Source: Bradyrhizobiaceae bacterium PARB1 (GTDB lineage Bacteria; Pseudomonadota; Alphaproteobacteria; Rhizobiales; Xanthobacteraceae). From it: a DNA stretch of 64,000 nucleotides. Below, one piece after another: positions 39,014 through 49,700 of this stretch. The stretch spans positions 558,001-622,000 of the forward strand of contig NKIY01000001.1 in the NCBI GenBank assembly GCA_002256345.1, given 5' to 3'. The notes beneath the pieces were generated by a model. The model made no database searches. It worked only from the letters and a program-made list of their open reading frames with translations, and was not told the origin of the DNA. The translations under genes and the position numbers were made by a program. The stretch's first letter is position 1, and each line of letters begins with the position of its first letter.

Positions 39014-40612
39014 TTAGTCCAGGCCGATCGTGGTCAGGTCCTGGAACCAGTGCTGCGCCTGCACGAACTTCTTCACTTTCGGCGACAATGCGTGCGGGTT
39101 GGTGTCGTGCACGACCCAGACCAGCACAGCGTCATCGACGATCTGCGCATGCGCTTCGGCGAGCAGCTCGTCCTGTTTCTTAGGATCGAAGTTGTTCTTC
39201 GCTTCGTCGATCAGCGCGTCGACCTTTGGATTCTTGTAGCCGCCCCAGTTCACGCCGACCGGTGCGATCTGGCCGGAATGGAAGAAGCGCACGATGGCAT
39301 ACAGGGGGTCCGACGTGACATAGGCGATATTGTTCGCGGTGATGCCCTTCATGCTCTCATCGGCCGCCCCCTTGCGCCACGCGGTGTAGAGAACCTCAAG
39401 CTCGACCACCTTGAACTCGATCTCGATGCCGATTTCCTTGAAGCTCTGCTGCAGGAATTCGTTGATCGGCAGCGACAGCATCTGGCCGGTGCCGCCATTG
39501 GCGATGATGAAGGTCGCCTTCAGCGGCTTGTCCGGACCATAGCCGGCTTCTTTCACCAGCTTCTTGGCCTCAGCGAGGTCATATTTGATCTTGAAGTTCG
39601 GCTTGCCGAACCATGGGCTCGACGGATCGACCTGGCCAACCGCCGGCTTGGCGAGGCCGTTCATCAGCGCAACGACGCCATCGCGATCAATGGCAAGGTT
39701 GAGCGCCTTGCGCAGGCGTACGTCGGTCCAGGGCGAGCCGGGCAGTACGCTGAGATGATAATTCCAGACATGCGGCGTCACGTTGTCGACGATCTTCATG
39801 CCGGCAGCCTTGAGTTGCGGCACAGCATCGGGAGCAGGGGTCTCGATGAGATCGACCTGGCCTGCGAGCAGGGCATTGGTGCGGGTCAGTGCTTCAGGCA
39901 TCGGGATCAGCACCAGCTTGTCCGCTTTCGGAATGCGTTTCTTGTCCCAGTAGTCAGCGTTCTTGCTGAGTTCGGCGAGTTCGCGTGGCACCAGCTTCGT
40001 CAACTTGAACGGACCGGTGCCTGAGGGCTGCGACGCGAACTTATCCCAGTCCTTGCCGACCTTCTCATACTGTGCCGGGCTGGAAACCAGGAACCAGAGC
40101 ATCTGATAGGGGAAGAATGAATCGACCGTCTTGGTGGTGATCTCCACCGTGCCGTCGTCGATCTTGGCGTAGCTCGCAACCGAGGGCAGGCGGGTCTTCA
40201 CCTGCGCGCTCTGGCGCTTGTCGAATTGCGGTGCTTTTTCATTCAGCACCTTGTCCAGATTCCAGATCACCGCGTCGGCATTGAATTCGCTACCGTCGTG
40301 AAACTTGACGCCTTTGCGCAGCGTGAAGCGCCATTTGGTCTTGTCCTTGTCGTCCACCTTCCACTCGGTGGCGAGACCAGGAATAAGTTTGCCGGGGCGA
40401 TCGGCGATGTCCATCTCCCATGCCACGAGCGGGTCATAGATCGTGTAGCCAGTAAACTGATAGCCGCCGGCGCCGCGATCGGGCTGACCGGTGGTCAGCG
40501 GAACGTCGGCCATCGAAATACCGTAACGCACAATTGTCTCGGCTTTCGCGGGTGCAGCGAGGCCAATGAGGGCCACCAGCGCTGCTCCTGCGAAAGAAAA
40601 TCGAAAACTCAT
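39014..40612 (-). CDS. ABC transporter solute-binding protein, family 5 (peptide/opine/nickel type)
   Basis: A 532-residue periplasmic binding protein with a signal peptide (cleavage near AAPAKA-ET). The family-5 signature is visible as LTTGQPDRGAGGYQFTGYTIYDPL and KWRFTLRKGVKFHDGSEFNADAVIWNLDKVL. It is paralogous to the divergent gene at 40824: the mature starts (ETIVRYGISMADVP versus ETVMRIGMTVADIP) and later motifs align. No permease genes lie downstream on this strand, so it probably shares the permeases of the divergent operon. AGGAG precedes the ATG at 40612, and a sigma-54-type promoter is at 40651-40667. Confidence 0.9.
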   Translation of the reverse strand: MSFRFSFAGAALVALIGLAAPAKAETIVRYGISMADVPLTTGQPDRGAGGYQFTGYTIYDPLVAWEMDIADRPGKLIPGLATEWKVDDKDKTKWRFTLRKGVKFHDGSEFNADAVIWNLDKVLNEKAPQFDKRQSAQVKTRLPSVASYAKIDDGTVEITTKTVDSFFPYQMLWFLVSSPAQYEKVGKDWDKFASQPSGTGPFKLTKLVPRELAELSKNADYWDKKRIPKADKLVLIPMPEALTRTNALLAGQVDLIETPAPDAVPQLKAAGMKIVDNVTPHVWNYHLSVLPGSPWTDVRLRKALNLAIDRDGVVALMNGLAKPAVGQVDPSSPWFGKPNFKIKYDLAEAKKLVKEAGYGPDKPLKATFIIANGGTGQMLSLPINEFLQQSFKEIGIEIEFKVVELEVLYTAWRKGAADESMKGITANNIAYVTSDPLYAIVRFFHSGQIAPVGVNWGGYKNPKVDALIDEAKNNFDPKKQDELLAEAHAQIVDDAVLVWVVHDTNPHALSPKVKKFVQAQHWFQDLTTIGLD

Positions 40613-40650
40613 CCCGAACTCCTGATGTGGAAAACATTCATTGGCGGCTA

Positions 40651-40667
40651 AGCAAGCTTGGTGCCAG
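40651..40667 (-). promoter_or_regulatory. Candidate sigma-54 promoter of the leftward binding-protein gene
   Basis: On the minus strand CTGGCACCAAGCTTGCT matches the -24/-12 consensus YTGGCACGRNNNTTGCW at every fixed position except one (C for G). GG and GC are exactly 10 bp apart. The distance from the -12 element to the ATG at 40612 is about 40 bp. Confidence 0.7.
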
Positions 40668-40748
40668 ACTGGTTCCAATCAAGAAGCCCTGCGCCAGTCA
40701 GCCGCGGGGGAGGAGGATGTACACCGCACGCGCACGTTGCTCTCATTA

Positions 40749-40765
40749 TTGGCACAGGCGTTGCA
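40749..40765 (+). promoter_or_regulatory. Candidate sigma-54 promoter of the rightward transport/amidase operon
   Basis: TTGGCACAGGCGTTGCA matches YTGGCACGRNNNTTGCW with a single deviation (A for G at the eighth position). GG and GC are 10 bp apart. It lies about 60 bp before the ATG at 40824. About 80 bp separate it from the opposing sigma-54 candidate, room for shared enhancer-binding sites, though I see no clear NtrC box. Confidence 0.7.
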
Positions 40766-40823
40766 TTGCACTGCATCAGAATTAGCCAACCGAATTCGTA
40801 TTGAAAGAAGGGGACTAGTCAGA

Positions 40824-42491
40824 ATGCGTATCGAGAAGCCAATCACAGGCCGTCTAAGAACTGCTCTCGCGATGTTCACGGTCGCGACAGCGCTGACGCT
40901 GCCGCAATTCGCGCAAGCCGAAACGGTGATGCGCATCGGCATGACCGTTGCGGATATCCCGCGCACGCTCGGCCAGCCCGATCAGGGATTTGAAGGTAAT
41001 CGCTTCACTGGCAATACAATGTATGATGGTCTCACCATCTGGGATCTGTCGTCTGCCACCAAGCCGAGCGTTGTGATCCCCGGATTGGCTACGGAATGGG
41101 CAGTCAACGACAGCGACAAGACCAAATGGGTCTTCAAGCTGCGTCCCGGCGTGAAATTCCACGATGGCAGCGACTTCAATGCCGATGCTGTGGTGTGGAA
41201 TGTCGAGAAGGTGCTGAAGCAGGACGCGCCGCAATTCGATGCAAGCCAGGTCGGCGTTACCGCCTCGCGCATGCCGACGCTGCTCTCGGCGAAGAAGATC
41301 GACGACATGACCGTCGAACTGACCACCAAGGAGCCGGACAGCTTCCTGCCAATCAATCTGACCAATCTCTTTATGGCGAGTCCTACCAAGTGGCAGTCGT
41401 TCTATGACAAGGCGCAGGGCGCCGATGCCAAGGCGAAGTCAGCTGCCGCATGGGATGCCTTCTCGAAGGATGCATCGGGCACCGGCCCGTGGAAGATGGC
41501 CAAGTTCACGCCGCGCGAGCGGCTCGAACTGGTGAAGAACGATGCATATTGGAACAAGGATCGCGTTCCGAAAGTCGACAAGATGGTACTCTTGCCGATG
41601 CCGGAAGCCAACGCCCGCACTGCGGCGTTGCTATCCGGCCAGATCGACTGGGCCGAAGCGCCGGCGCCGGATGCGGTGAAGGAAATCACCGCGCGCGGCT
41701 TCAAGATCGAGAAGAACGAGCAGCCGCATGTCTGGCCGTGGCAGTTCTCGCGCATCGAGGGATCGCCCTGGAACGACATCCGCGTCCGCAAGGCAGCTAA
41801 TCTGTGCATCGACCGCGAAGGCCTGCGTGACGGCCTGCTTGCCGGCCTGATGGTGCCTGCCACCGGCACGTTCGAACCCGGTCATCCCTGGCGCGGCAAT
41901 CCGACCTTCCAGATCAAATATGATCTGAAGGCCGCGCAGGCGCTGATGAAGGAAGCCGGTTTTGGCCCCAACAAGAAGCTGACGGTGAAGACGCAGACTT
42001 CGGCATCAGGCTCCGGCCAGATGCTGCCTCTGCCGATGAACGAATATATGCAGCAGGCGCTGGCGGAGTGCTACTTCGACGTCCAGCTCGACGTCATCGA
42101 GTGGAACACGCTGTTCACCAACTGGCGCCGTGGCGCCAAGGATCCGACGGCGAATGGCGCGAATGCGACCAATGTCACCTATGCGGCAATGGATCCATTC
42201 TTCGCACTGGTCCGCTTCCTGCAGTCGGGCATGGCGCCGCCGGTGTCGAACAACTGGGGTTACAACAACAATCCCAAATTCGACGAGCTTGTGAAGAAGG
42301 CACGCACCACTTTCGATCCGGCCGAGCGCGACAAGGCACTGGCGGAGTTGCATGCAGCGTCGGTGGACGATGCAGCGTTCCTCTATGTGGCGCATGACGT
42401 CGGCCCGCGTGCGCTGAGTCCGAAGATCAAGAACTTCGTGCAACCGAAGAGCTGGTTCGTCGACTTCTCGCCGATCACCATGACGCCGTAG
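40824..42491 (+). CDS. ABC transporter solute-binding protein, family 5, first gene of amidase operon
   Basis: A 555-residue periplasmic binding protein. The signal peptide ends near PQFAQA-ET (residue 32). GQPDQGFEGNRFTGNTMYDGL and KWVFKLRPGVKFHDGSDFNADAVVWNVEKVL are family-5 hallmarks, and the C-terminal half holds ASVDDAAFLYVAHDVGPRALSP. GAAGGGG lies 11 bp before the ATG at 40824; open frame upstream to 40641 crosses the promoter region and is not coding. It heads an operon that continues after a large inverted repeat with permeases, ATPases and amidase. The ligand is unknown; the amidase suggests an amide- or peptide-like compound. Confidence 0.9.
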   Translation: MRIEKPITGRLRTALAMFTVATALTLPQFAQAETVMRIGMTVADIPRTLGQPDQGFEGNRFTGNTMYDGLTIWDLSSATKPSVVIPGLATEWAVNDSDKTKWVFKLRPGVKFHDGSDFNADAVVWNVEKVLKQDAPQFDASQVGVTASRMPTLLSAKKIDDMTVELTTKEPDSFLPINLTNLFMASPTKWQSFYDKAQGADAKAKSAAAWDAFSKDASGTGPWKMAKFTPRERLELVKNDAYWNKDRVPKVDKMVLLPMPEANARTAALLSGQIDWAEAPAPDAVKEITARGFKIEKNEQPHVWPWQFSRIEGSPWNDIRVRKAANLCIDREGLRDGLLAGLMVPATGTFEPGHPWRGNPTFQIKYDLKAAQALMKEAGFGPNKKLTVKTQTSASGSGQMLPLPMNEYMQQALAECYFDVQLDVIEWNTLFTNWRRGAKDPTANGANATNVTYAAMDPFFALVRFLQSGMAPPVSNNWGYNNNPKFDELVKKARTTFDPAERDKALAELHAASVDDAAFLYVAHDVGPRALSPKIKNFVQPKSWFVDFSPITMTP

Positions 42492-42513: not shown

Positions 42514-42681
42514 TCCCCCAAGCACAGCGAAGCTGTGCGGATGGGGAGGGTGGATCGAACGCGAAGCGTTCGAGACGGGTGAGGGGTGCCACAAGCTCCG
42601 AGCCCGGCCGTACCCCTCACCCGCCTCCGCTGCGCGAAGGCACCTTCTCCCATCCTGCACAGCTTCGCTGTGCTTGGGGGA
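42514..42681. repeat. Large nested inverted repeat inside the transport operon
   Basis: The outer arms at 42514-42538 and 42657-42681 are perfectly complementary over 25 bp. An inner pair is built on GGGTGAGGGGT (42576-42586) and ACCCCTCACCC, and small hairpins such as CGAACGCGAAGCGTTCG lie between. It fills the 244-bp gap between the binding-protein gene and the first permease gene. In a transcript it would form a very stable hairpin, as REP elements do behind maltose-binding protein genes. Confidence 0.85.
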
Positions 42682-42735
42682 GAAGGAAAGAGGAGAGCCT
42701 ATGCGGGCTCTTCGTCGAGAAATAGAAGGTGCCCC

Positions 42736-43689
42736 TTGTTCGCTTATGTCGCTCGTCGCATCGTTTACGCGATCCCCATCATTCTCAGCGTTGCGCTGGT
42801 GTGCTTCCTGCTCGTGCATATCACGCCCGGCGATCCGCTTGTCGCGGTGTTGCCTGCCGACGCCTCCCAGGAGCTGGCGCAGCAGCTGCGCGTTGCCTAT
42901 GGCTTTGACAAGCCGTTGCCGGTGCAGTTCGGCCTTTGGGTCTGGCGGGCGCTGCATGGCGATCTCGGAGCCTCCATCGCCACCGGCCGCCCGGTGCTCG
43001 CCGAAGTCATGAATGCCGTCCGCAACACGGTGATGCTCGCCGTGTTTGCTGCGGCCATCGGCTTTACGCTCGGTCTGTTCTTCGGCCTGATTGCCGGCTA
43101 TTTCCGCGACACCTGGGTCGACAAGGTCGCCACCTCCATCGCGATTGCTGGCGTGTCCGTGCCGCATTACTGGCTCGGTATGGTGATGGTCATCATCTTC
43201 TCTGTGCAGCTCAACTGGCTGCCCGCGGTCGGCGCCGGCCCCGGTGGCTCCGGCGCCTGGGCGTGGGACTGGGAGCACATCAAGTATCTCATCCTGCCTG
43301 CCGTCACGACCTCGGTGATCCCGATGGGCATCGTGACCCGCACGGTGCGTGCGCTCACGGGCGACATCCTCTCGCAGGATTTTGTCGAAGCCTTGCGTGC
43401 CAAGGGTCTTCAGGAGTTCAAGGTGTTCAGGCACGTCATCAAGAATGCGGCACCGACCGCACTTGCCGTGATGGGCTTGCAGCTCGGTTACATGCTTGGC
43501 GGCTCGATCCTGATCGAAACCGTGTTCTCGTGGCCCGGCTCGGGCCTGCTGCTGAATTCAGCGATCTTCCAGCGCGACCTGCCGCTGCTGCAGGGCACGA
43601 TCCTGGTGCTGGCGCTGTTCTTCGTCTTCCTCAATCTCCTGGTCGATATCGCGCAGGCGTCCATCGATCCGCGCATCAAGCGGGCCTGA
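42736..43689 (+). CDS. ABC transporter permease, DppB/OppB type
   Basis: A 317-residue inner-membrane permease with six helices. It starts FAYVARRIVYAIPIILSVALVCFLL, and carries LVHITPGDPL near residue 30 and the ATPase-contacting EAA-like loop VEALRAKGLQEFKVFRHVIKNA near 220. The start is taken as TTG at 42736, with AAGGT just upstream; no ATG fits the family N-terminus. It immediately follows the large inverted repeat. Confidence 0.88.
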   Translation: MFAYVARRIVYAIPIILSVALVCFLLVHITPGDPLVAVLPADASQELAQQLRVAYGFDKPLPVQFGLWVWRALHGDLGASIATGRPVLAEVMNAVRNTVMLAVFAAAIGFTLGLFFGLIAGYFRDTWVDKVATSIAIAGVSVPHYWLGMVMVIIFSVQLNWLPAVGAGPGGSGAWAWDWEHIKYLILPAVTTSVIPMGIVTRTVRALTGDILSQDFVEALRAKGLQEFKVFRHVIKNAAPTALAVMGLQLGYMLGGSILIETVFSWPGSGLLLNSAIFQRDLPLLQGTILVLALFFVFLNLLVDIAQASIDPRIKRA

Positions 43690-43693
43690 CGCC

Positions 43694-44581
43694 ATGACTG
43701 TGATTACAGACACCGCCCTTCAGGCAGCCCCCGCCACCAAAGCCCGTGGTTACTGGGCCACGGTCGGTCGCCGTATCCGCCGTGACAAGGTCTCGATGGC
43801 CTGCGCGGCAATCCTGCTCCTGATCCTGCTCGCTGCGATCTTCGCGCCCTATCTCGGTCTCGCCGATCCCTACCAGGGCTCGATGATCCGCCGCCTGCGC
43901 GCGATCGGTACGCCGAACTATCCGCTCGGCACCGACGAACTCGGCCGCGATATGCTCGCACGCCTGATCTATGGCGGCCGCCTGTCGCTGCTCATTGGCA
44001 TTCTGCCGGTCATCCTTGCTTTCATCATCGGCACCTCGCTCGGCCTCGTCGCCGGCTATGTCGGCGGCAAGCTCAACACCGCGATCATGCGCACGGTGGA
44101 CGTGTTCTACGCCTTTCCGTCGGTGCTGCTGGCGATCGCGATCTCCGGCGCGCTCGGTGCCGGCATCGTCAATTCCATCGTCTCGCTCACCATCGTCTTC
44201 GTGCCGCAGATCACCCGCGTCGCCGAGAGCGTCACGACGGGCGTGCGGAACATGGACTATGTGGAAGCCGCCCGCGCGTCCGGCGCGGGCGCCTTCACCA
44301 TCATGCGCGTGCACATGCTCGGCAATGTGCTGGGCTCGATATTCGTCTATGCGACCGGCCTCATCTCGGTGTCGATGATCCTCGCCGCCGGCCTGTCGTT
44401 CCTCGGTCTCGGCACCAAGCCGCCGGAGCCGGAATGGGGCCTGATGCTGAACACCCTGCGCACCGCGATCTATGTCAATCCGTGGGTGGCCGCGCTGCCC
44501 GGCGTGATGATCTTTGCCGTGTCGATCTGCTTCAACCTGCTGAGCGACGGCATGCGCAGCGCCATGGATATCCGGAACTGA
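43694..44581 (+). CDS. ABC transporter permease, DppC/OppC type
   Basis: A 295-residue permease partner. Its first helix is MACAAILLLILLAAIFAPYLGL, with the family motif YPLGTDELGRDMLARLIYGGRLSLLIG near residue 78 and the cytoplasmic coupling loop YVEAARASGAGAFTIMRVHMLGNV near 195. It starts 4 bp after the DppB-type gene. Together they form the membrane channel of the operon. Confidence 0.9.
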   Translation: MTVITDTALQAAPATKARGYWATVGRRIRRDKVSMACAAILLLILLAAIFAPYLGLADPYQGSMIRRLRAIGTPNYPLGTDELGRDMLARLIYGGRLSLLIGILPVILAFIIGTSLGLVAGYVGGKLNTAIMRTVDVFYAFPSVLLAIAISGALGAGIVNSIVSLTIVFVPQITRVAESVTTGVRNMDYVEAARASGAGAFTIMRVHMLGNVLGSIFVYATGLISVSMILAAGLSFLGLGTKPPEPEWGLMLNTLRTAIYVNPWVAALPGVMIFAVSICFNLLSDGMRSAMDIRN

Positions 44582-44585
44582 CGAT

Positions 44586-45650
44586 ATGACAGATACGCTC
44601 GAAGTCACCGACAAGATGCTCGACCCAATCGAAGATATCGGCGGTGAGGCGCAGCCGCTGCTCCATGTCAAAGGTCTCACAAAACACTTCCCGGTGCGCG
44701 GCGGTCTGTTCGCGCCCAGCAAGACTGTGCGCGCCGTGGACGATGTCACTTTCGCCATCGGCAAGGGCGAGACGGTCGGCATCGTCGGCGAGTCCGGCTG
44801 TGGCAAGTCCACTACCGCGCGTCTTCTGATGCATCTGATGCCGCGCAATTCCGGCGATATCATCTTCGACGGCCGCGCCGTCGGCCGCGAATTAACCCTG
44901 CGCGAACTGCGACGCGGCATGCAGATGGTGTTTCAGGACAGCTACGCCTCGCTGAATCCACGCCTCACCATCGAGGAGTCGGTTGCTTTCGGTCCGAAAG
45001 TGCACGGCATGGCCGACAAGACCGCGCGCGCGCTTGCCCGGGATCTGCTCGGCAAAGTGGGCTTGCGACCGGAAGTGTTCGCCAATCGCTATCCGCACGA
45101 GGTTTCGGGCGGTCAGCGTCAGCGCGTCAACATCGCGCGCGCACTCGCGCTGTCACCGCGTCTTGTCATCCTCGACGAAGCCGTCTCCGCGCTCGATAAG
45201 TCGGTCGAGGCGCAGGTGCTCAATCTGCTGGTGGATCTCAAGCGCGAATTCGGCCTGACCTACCTCTTTATCAGCCATGACCTCAATGTCGTCCGCTACA
45301 TCTCCGATCGTGTGCTGGTGATGTATCTCGGCGAAGTCGTCGAGCTAGGCCCGGTGGACGACGTCTGGGATGCACCGGCGCATCCCTATACGCGCGCGCT
45401 GCTGGCTGCGATGCCGTCTACCGATCCCGACAACCGCACGCAAACACCGCCGATCACCGGTGATCCGCCGAACCCGATCGATCCGCCGTCCGGCTGCCGT
45501 TTCCATACGCGCTGCGCGTTCGCCGAAGCTATGTGCGGCGAAACCAAGCCGGCGCTGACGGAGATTACCGCCAGCGGCCATCAGGCTGCCTGCTTCATGG
45601 CGATCCCCGGCTCCGGCCACAGCAAGGCGCCAAGCGCAGGAGTGCAGTGA
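44586..45650 (+). CDS. ABC transporter ATPase, DppF/OppF type
   Basis: A 354-residue ATPase with Walker A GESGCGKSTTARLL (near residue 67), signature VSGGQRQRVNIARALALSP (near 170) and Walker B LVILDEAVSALD. The C-terminal oligopeptide-family extension contains the Cys-rich motif PSGCRFHTRCAFAEAMC near residue 300. It starts 4 bp after the permease gene. An unusual 20-residue N-terminal lead precedes the ATPase fold. Confidence 0.9.
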   Translation: MTDTLEVTDKMLDPIEDIGGEAQPLLHVKGLTKHFPVRGGLFAPSKTVRAVDDVTFAIGKGETVGIVGESGCGKSTTARLLMHLMPRNSGDIIFDGRAVGRELTLRELRRGMQMVFQDSYASLNPRLTIEESVAFGPKVHGMADKTARALARDLLGKVGLRPEVFANRYPHEVSGGQRQRVNIARALALSPRLVILDEAVSALDKSVEAQVLNLLVDLKREFGLTYLFISHDLNVVRYISDRVLVMYLGEVVELGPVDDVWDAPAHPYTRALLAAMPSTDPDNRTQTPPITGDPPNPIDPPSGCRFHTRCAFAEAMCGETKPALTEITASGHQAACFMAIPGSGHSKAPSAGVQ

Positions 45651-45651
45651 C

Positions 45652-45849
45652 ATGGCGAAGCCCAGCGCGAAACAGATCAAGGTTCTGTCCGAGGTGACAG
45701 GACTGCCAGCCTCCGATGAAGTCGCCGAGCGTATCGCCGTCTCCATGGGCCCGGCTTTCGAGAACTTCGCTGCCATCGCCGGCACGCTGCCGCTCGATCT
45801 CGAGCCCGCGACCTATATCACGGTCCAGAACGGAAAGGCCGGCAAATGA
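45652..45849 (+). CDS. AtzG-like small amidase partner (DUF4089 type)
   Basis: A 65-residue protein sitting between a transporter ATPase and an amidase, overlapping the amidase start by ATGA. The pattern GLP...ERIAVSMGPAFENFAAIAGTLPLDLEPATYI resembles AtzG/DUF4089 proteins, which bind and stabilise AtzE-type amidases much as GatC supports GatA. AGGAG lies about 9 bp upstream of the ATG. Similarity is from memory of the family pattern and moderate; the gene position strengthens it. Confidence 0.65.
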   Translation: MAKPSAKQIKVLSEVTGLPASDEVAERIAVSMGPAFENFAAIAGTLPLDLEPATYITVQNGKAGK

Positions 45850-47261
45850 GCGCTACCGAACCCGCATTGCTCTCGGTCACCGAAGTCGCGAACGCCATCG
45901 CGGCGAAGAAGCTGTCATCGCGCGAGGTCACGCAATCCTGCCTCGACCGCGTCGCGAAATGGCAGCCGCATCTCAACGCCTACATGTCTATCGAGGCCGA
46001 GGCTGCGCTTGCGGCTGCCGATAAAGCCGATGCGGCGTTCGCCAAAGGCGGGAGTTGCGGTGTTCTGCATGGTGTGCCGATGGCGCATAAGGACATGTAT
46101 TACGACGAAGGCCATGTGGTGACCTGCGGCTCTAAAATCCGCAAGGATTGGGTCGCGAAGACTACCGCAACCTCGCTGCAACGCCTGAAGGACGCCGGCA
46201 CCGTCCGGCTTGGTTCGCTGCAGATGGTCGAATTCGCCTTCGGCCCGCTCGGCCACAACACCCATTACGGTCCGGTCCGCAATCCCTGGAATGTTGCCCA
46301 CGCCACCGGCGGTTCGTCCTCGGGCTCCGGCTCGGCCGTGGCGGCGCGTCTGACCTTCGCTGCGCTCGGCTCCGACACCGGCGGTTCGATCCGCATGCCC
46401 GCGCATTTCTGCGGCGTCTCCGGCCTGAAGACCACGGTTGGCCTCGTCAGTCGTGCCGGCGCGATGCCGCTGTCGCAGTCGCTCGATACGGTCGGCCCGC
46501 TGGCGCGTACGGTCGAGGACTGCGCACTGGTCACCGGCCTGATGGCGGGTGCCGATCCGCTCGATCCGACCGCCAGCATCCGTGAGGTGCCGGATTACAT
46601 GGCGGCCACCAAAGCGTCCGCAAAAGGCATGACCGTCGGCATCCCGAAGGCTTTCTATGTGGACGATCTCGATCCCGAGGTCGCCGCGATCCTGCAGAAC
46701 ACCATCGCTGCGCTGAAGGACGAGGGGATTGCGATCGTCGAGGTCGATCTCCCGAACCAGCTCCAGCTCACCGCAGCGTCGCAACTCGTGCTCGCAACCG
46801 AAGCTGCGGCCTTGCACAAGCGCTGGATGATCGAGCGCCCGCAGGACTACGGCCCGCAGGTGCTGATGCGTCTCGAGAACGGCCTCGCCATCACCGGCGT
46901 CGCCTATCTCGAAGCCCTGCGCTGGCGCGGCCCGGCGCTTGCCGCGCATCTGACGGCTGTCGCAGGCGTCGATGCGATTCTCGCACCGGTCTCGCCAATG
47001 GCCGCGCCGCGGATCGACGAGACCGACATCGGCAACGGGCCTGGCGCCGAGGCGCTGATCCAGCGCGTCACGCGCTTCACCCGTCCGATCAACTATCTCG
47101 GTCTGCCCGCGCTTTCCATCCCGGCCGGTTTCACCAAGGCAAAACTGCCCGTTGGCATGCAGCTTGTCGGCCGTCCGTTCGAGGAAGCGACACTCCTGAC
47201 CATCGGCGCCGCGTTCCAGCGCGCGACCGATCACCATATGAAATGCCCGGAATTGCCATGA
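45846..47261 (+). CDS. Amidase-signature hydrolase (AtzE/GatA-like)
   Basis: A 471-residue amidase. The catalytic triad is complete: Lys82 in MAHKDMYYDEG, cis-Ser157 in TGGSSSGSG and nucleophile Ser181 in SDTGGSIRMP. Relatives include GatA, AtzE (1-carboxybiuret hydrolase) and peptide or aryl amidases. It is coupled to the AtzG-like gene upstream (ATGA) and to the ATPase gene downstream (ATGA at 47258-47261), so it is an integral part of the transport operon. There is no signal peptide, so the imported substrate would be hydrolysed in the cytoplasm, releasing ammonia or an amine. Confidence 0.88.
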   Translation: MSATEPALLSVTEVANAIAAKKLSSREVTQSCLDRVAKWQPHLNAYMSIEAEAALAAADKADAAFAKGGSCGVLHGVPMAHKDMYYDEGHVVTCGSKIRKDWVAKTTATSLQRLKDAGTVRLGSLQMVEFAFGPLGHNTHYGPVRNPWNVAHATGGSSSGSGSAVAARLTFAALGSDTGGSIRMPAHFCGVSGLKTTVGLVSRAGAMPLSQSLDTVGPLARTVEDCALVTGLMAGADPLDPTASIREVPDYMAATKASAKGMTVGIPKAFYVDDLDPEVAAILQNTIAALKDEGIAIVEVDLPNQLQLTAASQLVLATEAAALHKRWMIERPQDYGPQVLMRLENGLAITGVAYLEALRWRGPALAAHLTAVAGVDAILAPVSPMAAPRIDETDIGNGPGAEALIQRVTRFTRPINYLGLPALSIPAGFTKAKLPVGMQLVGRPFEEATLLTIGAAFQRATDHHMKCPELP

Positions 47262-48229
47262 CCAACCTGATCGACGTTCGCAATCTCAATGTCCGCTTCG
47301 GCGGTGAGCGCACCGTTTATGCGGTCAACGATCTCAGCCTCTCCGTGAAGCAGGGTGAGGTGCTTGGTTTGCTTGGCGAGTCCGGCTCCGGCAAAAGCGT
47401 CACCCTGCGCGCTCTGATGCGTCTGCTGCCTAAGAAGCGCACGCAAATCACCGGCGCCGTCAATGTGCTCGGCAAGGACGTGCTGGCGCTGGACGACGAC
47501 GAGTTGTCGAAGTTCCGCGGCCAGAGCGTGTCGATGATCTTTCAGGAGCCAGCGCTGGCGTTGGACCCTGTCTATACGATCGGCCAGCAGATCTCGGAAA
47601 GCGTGATGCGGCACGAGGGCAAGAGCCACGCCGAGGGCATGAGGCGCGCGCTTGAAATGCTCGAGGTGGTGCGCATTCCCTCGGCGAAGCGCCGTCTGGA
47701 TGCCTATCCGCACGAAATGTCCGGCGGCATGCGGCAGCGCGCGATGATCGCGCTGGCGCTGGCCTGCAAGCCAAAAATCCTGCTGGCGGACGAGCCGACC
47801 ACGGCGCTGGATGCCACGGTGCAGATCCAGATCCTGCTGCTGCTGCGCGAGCTGCAGCGCGAATTCGGCATGTCGATCATTTTCGTGACGCACGATATCG
47901 GCGTCGCCATCGAAATCTGCGACCGCGTTGCCGTCATGTATGCCGGCCAGATCGTGGAGCAGGGCACCACGAGCCAGATCGTGCGCTCGGCAGTGCATCC
48001 CTATCCGCAGGGCCTGCTGTCATCGACGGTGCATGGCGCCAAGCGCGGCGAGCGTTTGGAGACCATTCCGGGCACGCCGCCTTCGCTCGACACGAAGCCG
48101 GCAAGCTGCTCATTCGCACCACGCTGCAAGTTTGCGCAGGATCGCTGTGTGGAGGCGCTGCCGCCGAATGTGGAGCTCGCGGGTGATCGCGTGGTGCGGT
48201 GTATTCGGGCGGAGACGGTGGCGGCCTAA
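47258..48229 (+). CDS. ABC transporter ATPase, DppD/OppD type
   Basis: A 323-residue ATPase with Walker A GESGSGKSVTLRAL (near residue 43), signature MSGGMRQRAMIALALACKP (near 155) and Walker B ILLADEPTTALD. The C-terminal Cys motif PASCSFAPRCKFAQDRC is near residue 285. The start overlaps the amidase stop. With the DppF-type protein it would form a heterodimeric motor. It is separated from its partner by the amidase genes, an uncommon order. Confidence 0.9.
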   Translation: MTNLIDVRNLNVRFGGERTVYAVNDLSLSVKQGEVLGLLGESGSGKSVTLRALMRLLPKKRTQITGAVNVLGKDVLALDDDELSKFRGQSVSMIFQEPALALDPVYTIGQQISESVMRHEGKSHAEGMRRALEMLEVVRIPSAKRRLDAYPHEMSGGMRQRAMIALALACKPKILLADEPTTALDATVQIQILLLLRELQREFGMSIIFVTHDIGVAIEICDRVAVMYAGQIVEQGTTSQIVRSAVHPYPQGLLSSTVHGAKRGERLETIPGTPPSLDTKPASCSFAPRCKFAQDRCVEALPPNVELAGDRVVRCIRAETVAA

Positions 48230-48273: not shown

Positions 48274-48762
48274 CTAACCCTTCAAATTCTTCAGCAAGAA
48301 CGTCAGCGCCGTCTGCGCAAACATCTGCATGTTCTCCTGCCGGTCGCTGCTGCCCGTTTCCAGTGTCATGACTTCGTTTGCCGGCCCGGCCACGGCGATG
48401 CAGCTATGCCCGGCGGCGTCACCATAGCGGTTGCCCGATGGCCCCGTGGCGCCCGTTTCCGACAGTCCCCAGTCGCAGCCCAGCCGCTCGCGAATCTGCG
48501 CCGCCAGGAGTTGCGCATAGGGCTCGGAGGACGAGCGCATCCCCGGCACCCGAAACGCATCATCGGGAATGTCCATCAGTGCACGCCGCGCATCGCGCGT
48601 ATAGATCACGCCGCCACCGATGAAATAGGCGGATGCCCCGGGCACCGCGAGCAGGGCGGCAGAGATCAATCCACCGGTTGATGACTCGGCCACGCCGATC
48701 GTCTGCTTGCGTGCGATCAGCTCGATAGCAACTTTCTCTGCGAGCGGAAGCAGGTCCTTCAC
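48274..48762 (-). CDS. CinA C-terminal-domain protein (nicotinamide-nucleotide amidase PncC-like)
   Basis: A 162-residue stand-alone CinA C-terminal domain, which in PncC deamidates NMN. Motifs are IGVAESSTGGLISAALLAVPGAS (near residue 25), FIGGGVIYTRDARRAL (near 50) and LSETGATGPSGNRYGDAAGHS (near 105). The start is GTG, overlapping the TGA of the upstream metallo-hydrolase gene by GTGA, so translation is coupled. Confidence 0.85.
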   Translation of the reverse strand: MKDLLPLAEKVAIELIARKQTIGVAESSTGGLISAALLAVPGASAYFIGGGVIYTRDARRALMDIPDDAFRVPGMRSSSEPYAQLLAAQIRERLGCDWGLSETGATGPSGNRYGDAAGHSCIAVAGPANEVMTLETGSSDRQENMQMFAQTALTFLLKNLKG

Positions 48763-49700
48763 GACTTCAGCCCTGCCTTCTTCGGCGCCAGCGAACCATA
48801 GACAGCACGAACGAAGTTCTTGCTCGCCGTTTCGTTCGGCGCCCATTTCGCATCGAGGTCGGCGAAAGGCTTGGCGGCCTGCACCTCGTCCTCGGTTTTA
48901 CCTTCCTTCACCAGCTTCGCCATGCGATCTCGTGCCGTGACCAGCATGTCGCGATAGGCCGTGAGCGCCGCCCTGTCGGCGAGCGGGCCATGGCCGGGAA
49001 CGATCTTGGTCTTGTCATTGACCAGCTTCAAATAGGTGTCGGCCGCGGCGATCATGCCTCTGATATTGCCGCCATTGAGCACATCGATATTTGGATAGCG
49101 GCCATTGGTGAAGGTGTCGCCGGTCGCGAGCACGTTGGCGCTCTTGAAATAGACGTAAGTATCGCCGTCGGTATGCGCGTTCTTGATATGGTGCAGTTCG
49201 GCGATGCGGCCACGCAGGCTGAGCGTTAGCCGGTTCGGAAAAGTACGTGTCGGCAGTGCTGCCCTCGGCGCAGGTGGATTTTGGCCGCCGGTCAGGAAAT
49301 TCGCCGTGCCCTTGGCGAGACGCGTGCGCACCTTGATGTTCGCAACGATGGTCGCACCGTCCTTGGCGAAGGCTTCATTGCCGCCGGTGTGGTCGCCATG
49401 GAAATGCGTGTTGACGACGTACTTCACCGGCTGCGGCGTGAGCTTTGTGATCGCAGCCTTGATCTTGTCGTGCAGCGGCGCGAACTGGCTATCGACGAGG
49501 ATGGCGCCGACTTTCGCGGTGGCGAGCGTCATGTTGCCGCCCATGCCTTCCAGCATGTAGACGCCGTCGCCGAGATCGGTGGATTTGATCTCCACCTTGG
49601 AGAAATCCGGTGGTGGCGGCGCTTGCGGCGTCTGCTGCGCGAACGCATGTGCAGTAAAGGCGGCAAGTGAGCCGGCAAGGAGGATCGCGAGACTGCGCAT
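48759..49700 (-). CDS. Secreted metallo-beta-lactamase-fold hydrolase
   Basis: A 313-residue protein with a clear signal peptide (MRSLAILLAGSLAAFTAHAFA, cleavage near residue 21). The zinc motif VNTHFHGDHTGG is near residue 100, with further ligands in GDTFTNG (near 190) and IVPGHGPLAD. It is a periplasmic class-B-like fold protein, but substrates of this subgroup vary, and resistance to beta-lactams should not be assumed. GGAG lies 7 bp before the ATG. Confidence 0.85.
   Translation of the reverse strand: MRSLAILLAGSLAAFTAHAFAQQTPQAPPPPDFSKVEIKSTDLGDGVYMLEGMGGNMTLATAKVGAILVDSQFAPLHDKIKAAITKLTPQPVKYVVNTHFHGDHTGGNEAFAKDGATIVANIKVRTRLAKGTANFLTGGQNPPAPRAALPTRTFPNRLTLSLRGRIAELHHIKNAHTDGDTYVYFKSANVLATGDTFTNGRYPNIDVLNGGNIRGMIAAADTYLKLVNDKTKIVPGHGPLADRAALTAYRDMLVTARDRMAKLVKEGKTEDEVQAAKPFADLDAKWAPNETASKNFVRAVYGSLAPKKAGLKS

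Follow-up and report, generated by a model that had tools for sequence, protein, structure and literature searches.

Divergent binding-protein genes and the operon beside them

The locus studied here, from a soil bacterium of the Tardiphaga/Bradyrhizobium type, raises the question of what drives the transcription of two genes for family 5 extracellular solute-binding proteins that point away from each other across a gap of 211 bp (40613-40823), and in response to which signal. Positions refer to the window, by which we mean the whole 64-kb stretch of DNA that was analyzed, and the features of the locus are collected in Table 1. The two binding proteins both match PF00496 and share 48% identity with each other, in agreement with the preliminary description of this DNA, which had called the flanking genes paralogs. 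Both proteins score far under the curated cut-offs of the NCBIfam transporter names shown.

Table 1 Features of the divergent locus, in window coordinates
Feature	Position	Strand	Evidence and remarks
Extracellular solute-binding protein family 5, 532 aa, divergent paralog	39014-40612	-	PF00496, E 2.1e-77
Predicted sigma-54 -24/-12 element CTGGCACCAAGCTTGCT	40651-40667	-	Upstream of the divergent binding-protein gene; sequence match, conservation
Spacer between the two elements, 81 bp	40668-40748	.	Central ACAAN4TTGT dyad in part of Bradyrhizobium, not in the window
Predicted sigma-54 -24/-12 element TTGGCACAGGCGTTGCA	40749-40765	+	Upstream of the transporter/amidase operon; sequence match, conservation
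Extracellular solute-binding protein family 5, 555 aa, first gene of the operon	40824-42491	+	PF00496, E 1e-72; best PDB matches are dipeptide-binding proteins
ABC permease	42667-43689	+	PF00528, PF19300; the start, inside a longer frame, is a guess
ABC permease	43694-44581	+	PF00528, PF12911
ABC ATPase, oligo_HPY C-terminus	44586-45650	+	PF00005, PF08352
Amidase-signature hydrolase	45846-47261	+	PF01425
Second ABC ATPase, oligo_HPY C-terminus	47243-48229	+	PF00005, PF08352

The plus-strand genes form an apparent operon with the order binding protein, two permeases, ATPase, amidase and ATPase, and are presumably co-transcribed. We take the first permease to be of the DppB type and the second to be of the DppC type. 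For the amidase, the best NCBIfam match is the AtzE family (338 bits, under the cut-off of 461), and the best PDB matches are to a GatA chain, followed by biuret hydrolase. We infer that the substrate of the transporter is a peptide- or amide-like nitrogen compound and keep the assignment at this breadth. Most betaproteobacterial loci retrieved from relatives have only a partial amidase match (30-42% identity), located last in the operon, and the retrieved stretch of several Xanthobacter-type loci yielded no amidase; therefore, the enzyme may differ in those loci. As a separate observation on nearby frames, those listed at 48274-48846 and 48759-49700 (-) overlap by ~90 bp and one of their starts is probably wrong; from reading the sequence, we take them to encode a CinA-like and a metallo-beta-lactamase-fold-like protein.

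Two -24/-12 elements of opposite orientation in the gap

Each strand of the gap carries one 17-mer with GG-N10-GC spacing and a single mismatch to the extended consensus YTGGCACGRNNNTTGCW, and the coordinates, strands, spacing and single deviation that had been given for both elements were all reproduced. The distance from the end of the -12 box to the ATG is 58 bp on the plus strand (ATG at 40824) and 38 bp on the minus strand (ATG at 40612), so that the element-to-gene distance of 40-60 bp originally given is approximately right. Both reading frames are open upstream of these ATGs, which we selected because signal-like N-termini begin there and because the gap of relatives aligns with insertions and deletions. 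A simple scan of 40560-40860 detected no sigma-70-like promoter; because the chance expectation for such sites is just 0.2, their absence says little. The genome contains one match to PF04552 (E 1.9e-70), corresponding to rpoN.

To the preliminary description, two such elements in one gap were unlikely by chance, and a scan against random sequence supports this statement. Specifically, with at most one mismatch to the consensus, the 64-kb window contains two matches, both in this gap, compared with a mean of 0.24 in shuffled sequences; 3 of 100 shuffles reached two matches anywhere in the 64 kb, counted irrespective of whether the matches shared a gap or faced a gene. At up to two mismatches and with a looser spacer, the window yielded four matches vs 7.0 expected. 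This looser search gave no enrichment and, therefore, the signal resides in the two strong sites. Across the whole 6.95-Mb genome, YTGGCACN5TTGCW has three matches, of which two are in this gap and the third is inside open reading frames, while the reversed-pattern control has one. The looser pattern TGGCAYN5TTGCW has 13 matches vs 8 for its control, indicating that the genome is near chance overall and that the unusual part is the clustering in one gap.

Both elements are conserved in relatives

The preliminary description had proposed conservation in relatives as a check on both elements, and they passed from this comparison largely intact. Sites were scored with hand-made weights that have a maximum of 21.5 and require both GG and GC, and a site was counted if it scored >=19 and was located <=200 bp upstream. 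The sample, drawn from named genomes, consisted of the best 80 of 271 qualifying stretches containing relatives of the plus-strand binding protein; some of these loci end at contig edges and have flanks of <5 kb there. A plus-strand site of at least 19 of 21.5 is present in 76 of these 80 relatives (best 80 of 271), compared with 1.5% in the Markov-resampled control. The 76 loci include Bradyrhizobium, Rhodopseudomonas, Tardiphaga, Xanthobacter and Aurantimonas, as well as the Betaproteobacteria Variovorax, Hydrogenophaga and Comamonas. Of the 80 loci, 44 were found to have the divergent paralog, and every one of these has a minus-strand site (control 4.5%).

It is important to note that the invariance of GG and GC is built into these counts because the scoring required both, and that the threshold also favors the rest of the consensus. 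Among the bases that were not required, the T that precedes GG and the C that follows it are invariant in 76/76 plus sites and 44/44 minus sites, the A of TGGCA is present in 76/76 plus and 40/44 minus sites, and the first T of TTGC in 71/76 and 44/44, respectively. When 29 gap sequences, each of the divergent type, were aligned, conservation was concentrated mainly in the two elements; the other conserved parts are a short stretch just 3' of the plus element and CTCC near the start of the minus gene.

The four exceptions (L055, L059, L061 and L063) keep the -24 box, as CTGGCACG or CTGGCATG, and, as read by eye, carry TTGA or TTGT at -12, where the other loci have TTGC. Loss of rpoN was considered as the cause of these altered -12 sites and rejected, since rpoN is present in 13 of the 13 genomes searched, these four included.

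Two observations concern the sequence that follows the plus-strand -12 box. In the window, AATTAGCCAAC is located at 40780-40790, just downstream of this box, and many relatives keep it, in variants such as ATTAGTCAC and AATAATCACC; the stretch would fall within the early transcribed region. In five Betaproteobacteria (L064, L068, L075, L080 and L083), TACAAAAA directly follows the -12 box and is itself followed in most of them by a GCCTGCCAA-like stretch, making this sequence a clade-specific conserved feature of what would be the early transcribed region.

We conclude that the gap very probably contains two back-to-back sigma-54 (RpoN) promoters, as predicted from sequence and its conservation, one belonging to the dipeptide-type ABC transporter/amidase operon and the other to the duplicated binding-protein gene. 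This reading is strongly supported because both sites persist in divergent relatives while most of the gap fails to align, and because a published RpoN study lists a plus site that is very probably orthologous (see below).

Candidate activators

Sigma-54 promoters require an AAA+ activator, and substrate-specific activators often adjoin their targets. The genome has nine matches to PF00158, six of them strong, and 0/9 are on the contig of the window (C22), which bears out the earlier remark that no gene in the window supplies an activator. Similarly, tblastn with five activator proteins at 1e-8 found no neighboring activator gene in the retrieved flanks of the 80 relatives, and the queries recovered their own genes as well as those of one another, which served as the positive control. 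At E <=1, the same search returned short weak matches only, of which the best (5.6e-6, ~120-135 residues, in L065) is perhaps a receiver domain. A dedicated neighboring activator was, thus, looked for in the contig and the retrieved flanks and set aside.

Among the activators encoded elsewhere in the genome, NtrC (L086) scores 741 bits against TIGR01818 vs a cut-off of 558.6 and has an intact GAFTGA motif. FlbD is over its curated cut-off and also has GAFTGA, and three further proteins (L085, L087 and L089) have a GAFTGA loop and are under every curated cut-off shown. None of these five activators reached the NifA cut-off. The protein next to NtrC, which from its position and sequence we take to be NtrX, reads differently at the GAFTGA loop and was set aside as the activator.

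Because neither the contig nor the retrieved flanks were found to contain a gene for an enhancer-binding protein, a global activator is likeliest, with NtrC first. In line with this, the persistence of the promoter across Alpha- and Betaproteobacteria without a neighboring activator argues for a widespread activator, and since the targets are an amidase and an uptake system, NtrC acting under nitrogen limitation is the first choice. Our working hypothesis is, therefore, that the activator is probably, though by no means surely, NtrC under nitrogen limitation.

We searched for NtrC-type dyads using the enteric consensus, which is a poor probe in this clade. With five-base arms, the best match in the gap has two mismatches (40718-40734) and is at chance level in the window, where there are 21 matches at <=2 mismatches vs 40.6 expected. 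Genome-wide, this probe has three palindromic places; frames were listed around one of them, and none was tied to a nitrogen gene. With six-base arms of the enteric consensus, nothing under four mismatches was found in 40300-41000. However, at <=3 mismatches the six-base probe also found nothing immediately 5' of the sigma-54-like sites that precede urtA (L111) and a P-II gene (L108) and, therefore, the negative result for an NtrC site is weak. Together, the 29-sequence alignment and the dyad probes revealed no conserved NtrC-type site in the gap. De novo enumeration of dyads in 51 upstream regions was unusable; these regions contained coding sequence of neighbors and related sequences, which probably drove the top motifs. 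Within the coding regions, identity at four-fold sites over the first 200 codons (41 sequences per gene) showed no conserved block near either start. Among ten-codon blocks, four-fold identity peaks at codons 181-190 in the minus gene (0.88; mean 0.65) and at codons 91-100 in the plus gene (0.84; mean 0.67), the latter corresponding to approximately 41094-41123 in the window.

We also considered that the sigma-54 promoters are real and that the activator is not NtrC but L085, L087 or L089, sensing the transported substrate or another signal. The existence of these three GAFTGA proteins besides NtrC and FlbD, and the lack of a conserved NtrC-type site among the sequences compared, are compatible with this alternative, which we nevertheless regard as rather unlikely: none of the three is encoded on the contig of the window, no activator was recognized in the retrieved flanks of the 80 relatives, and the presence of the plus-side promoter in Betaproteobacteria favors a widespread activator. 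NtrC, thus, stays our preferred activator. Of the interpretation in the preliminary description, the sigma-54 part is strongly supported by conservation and the published site, while the part concerning NtrC and nitrogen is plausible, with an NtrC with intact GAFTGA in the genome in its favor and the failure to find a conserved NtrC-type site in the gap against it.

The probable promoter pair as a unit and a dyad between the promoters in some Bradyrhizobium

The distance between the GG dinucleotides of the two elements is 86-87 bp in 31 of the 44 loci with both sites; in 12 of the others it ranges from 65 to 99 bp, and in the remaining locus it is 287 bp. A stricter, two-sided pattern of the pair with a spacer of 66-96 bp occurs in 100 of 391 family genomes and 5 of 47 genera, with no match of the control in the 391 rows; of note, this pattern is palindromic and every place appears on both strands. 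The genome of the window was missed by the two-sided pattern because its minus element ends with TTGCT. At each of the three places whose gene context was compared at the protein level (L186, L189 and L194), both binding-protein genes are present.

In part of Bradyrhizobium, a dyad, ACAAN4TTGT, is located midway between the two promoters. Loci with this dyad are L132-L178, which are Bradyrhizobium-type, and 15 named loci, e.g. L018 and L036. This feature raises a possibility that is compatible with the reading of the gap as two sigma-54 promoters and that we put forward with considerable doubt, namely that, in addition to sigma-54 activation, a DNA-binding protein specific to this locus occupies the central spacer and gates both promoters. 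Consistent with gating, in 43 distinct sequences (orientation ignored) with the dyad and both elements, the dyad is 35-37 bp from each -24 box with a difference of <=2 bp between the two sides, which places its center at roughly -67 of both predicted starts. Moreover, among 60 Bradyrhizobium genomes, the dyad with a sigma-54-like site in both directions was found at one place in 25 genomes, which by sequence is this promoter pair, and the dyad with a sigma-54-like site was found at just four places elsewhere. Against gating, the control also gave one match in these 60 genomes, the dyad is missing in the window (best match 4 of 8 bases), and all eight dyad bases are present in only 15 of the 44 named pair loci, with seven bases in 4, so that gating by this dyad is not a general mechanism.

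Because there are few places outside this locus, the dyad is not a general nitrogen-control site. For the same reason, namely that it is largely locus-specific, and because it is missing in the window, we rejected it as a general shared enhancer. The dyad may be the site for a locus-specific regulator of both promoters or a functionless feature of the lineage. We speculate, as a tentative idea that is more likely wrong than right, that the locus is built as a symmetric unit in which one central regulator site is equidistant from the two opposite sigma-54 promoters, with ACAAN4TTGT as its sequence in part of Bradyrhizobium and another sequence in other clades, including the window. If so, a single protein at this site would open both promoters, or block both, and the duplicated binding protein would be kept in step with the transporter.

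That the -24/-12 matches arose by chance and are functionless is highly improbable: three matches in 6.95 Mb are, by themselves, about the chance level (one for the control pattern), but two of the three share one 211-bp gap in the correct orientation, both sites persist in distant relatives, and the pair recurs across the family genomes.

Proposed regulation of the locus

Taken as two sigma-54 promoters, the elements suggest the following scheme. The plus promoter would drive the operon and the minus promoter the second copy of the binding protein. Sigma-54 RNA polymerase would form a closed complex at the -24/-12 boxes, to be opened by an AAA+ enhancer-binding protein whose gene lies elsewhere in the genome. 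Under nitrogen limitation, the cell would take up more peptide- or amide-like compounds and, in parallel, release more ammonia through the amidase, and the two binding proteins would serve one transporter. The promoters, in this scheme, probably switch on the scavenging of nitrogen compounds, with nitrogen as the signal that we infer.

The locus adds to the sigma-54 targets a well-supported case, an amide-/peptide-scavenging operon with a duplicated, separately transcribed binding protein; on the operon side, the promoter is shared by organisms ranging from the Bradyrhizobium type to Variovorax and Hydrogenophaga. Since the promoters themselves are conserved but no conserved enhancer was found, the locus offers a test of how such sigma-54 promoters become active. 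The symmetric dyad of Bradyrhizobium is a candidate binding site for a protein that would control two sigma-54 promoters simultaneously.

Comparison with published RpoN data and known systems

The regulation proposed here is of a known kind, and one of the sites has very probably been published before, for a relative. In its available part, a 2026 study of Bradyrhizobium sp. DOA9 reports 68 RpoNc sites, with candidates cross-referenced with rpoN-responsive genes, and lists the 15-mer TGGCATAGCCATTGC as the RpoN site at -51 of BRADOA9_v1_30301, which encodes an ABC transporter substrate-binding protein; some sites in the same table fit the consensus poorly (PMC13207237). We found TGGCATAGCCATTGC to be identical to the plus-side element of many of the Bradyrhizobium loci retrieved here. 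Among 60 Bradyrhizobium genomes, it occurs in 18, once in each, and is located at this locus in 16 of the 18 and elsewhere in two. Because 16 of 18 genomes carry the 15-mer at this locus, BRADOA9_v1_30301 is very probably the ortholog of the plus-strand binding-protein gene, as matched by the 15-mer and the annotation.

As far as the accessible text of that study goes, the DOA9 rpoN mutants express peptide transporter genes and an atzE gene at lower levels, and these may or may not be genes of this operon; the data come from N2-fixing growth and, therefore, do not single out NtrC (PMC13207237). An ABC-transporter promoter was also used in a gel shift there (PMC13207237). In the available part of that article, this one site of the locus is listed, and neither its back-to-back partner nor the paralog pair nor the activator is discussed (PMC13207237). 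In Bradyrhizobium USDA 110, which has two copies of rpoN, a transcription-start map predicted 1201 RpoN-like promoters, according to the part of that article at hand (PMC4842269). A description of the divergent promoter pair was not found in the portions available of PMC13207237, PMC4842269, PMC12316311, PMC10274813 and PMC5343134.

In the same genome, urtA (L111) resembles this locus in having a -24/-12 element, CTGGCACACTTCTTGCG, upstream of a binding-protein gene, in this case of the urea type. It differs in that the element is single, the gene is non-divergent, the transporter is of another family and there is no amidase. A second urtA-like gene (L112) has a weaker site only. In the accessible sections of the respective articles, rpoN mutants of DOA9 show reduced expression of urt genes (PMC13207237), and urea transporters are listed among the targets of NtrC for groups that include Rhizobiales (PMC5343134).

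The transporter itself is like those of the Dpp/Opp type (DppABCDF), with a family 5 binding protein, two permeases and two oligo_HPY ATPases. Unlike DppABCDF, this locus has an amidase gene within the operon, a second, divergent binding protein and, as predicted here, sigma-54 promoters.
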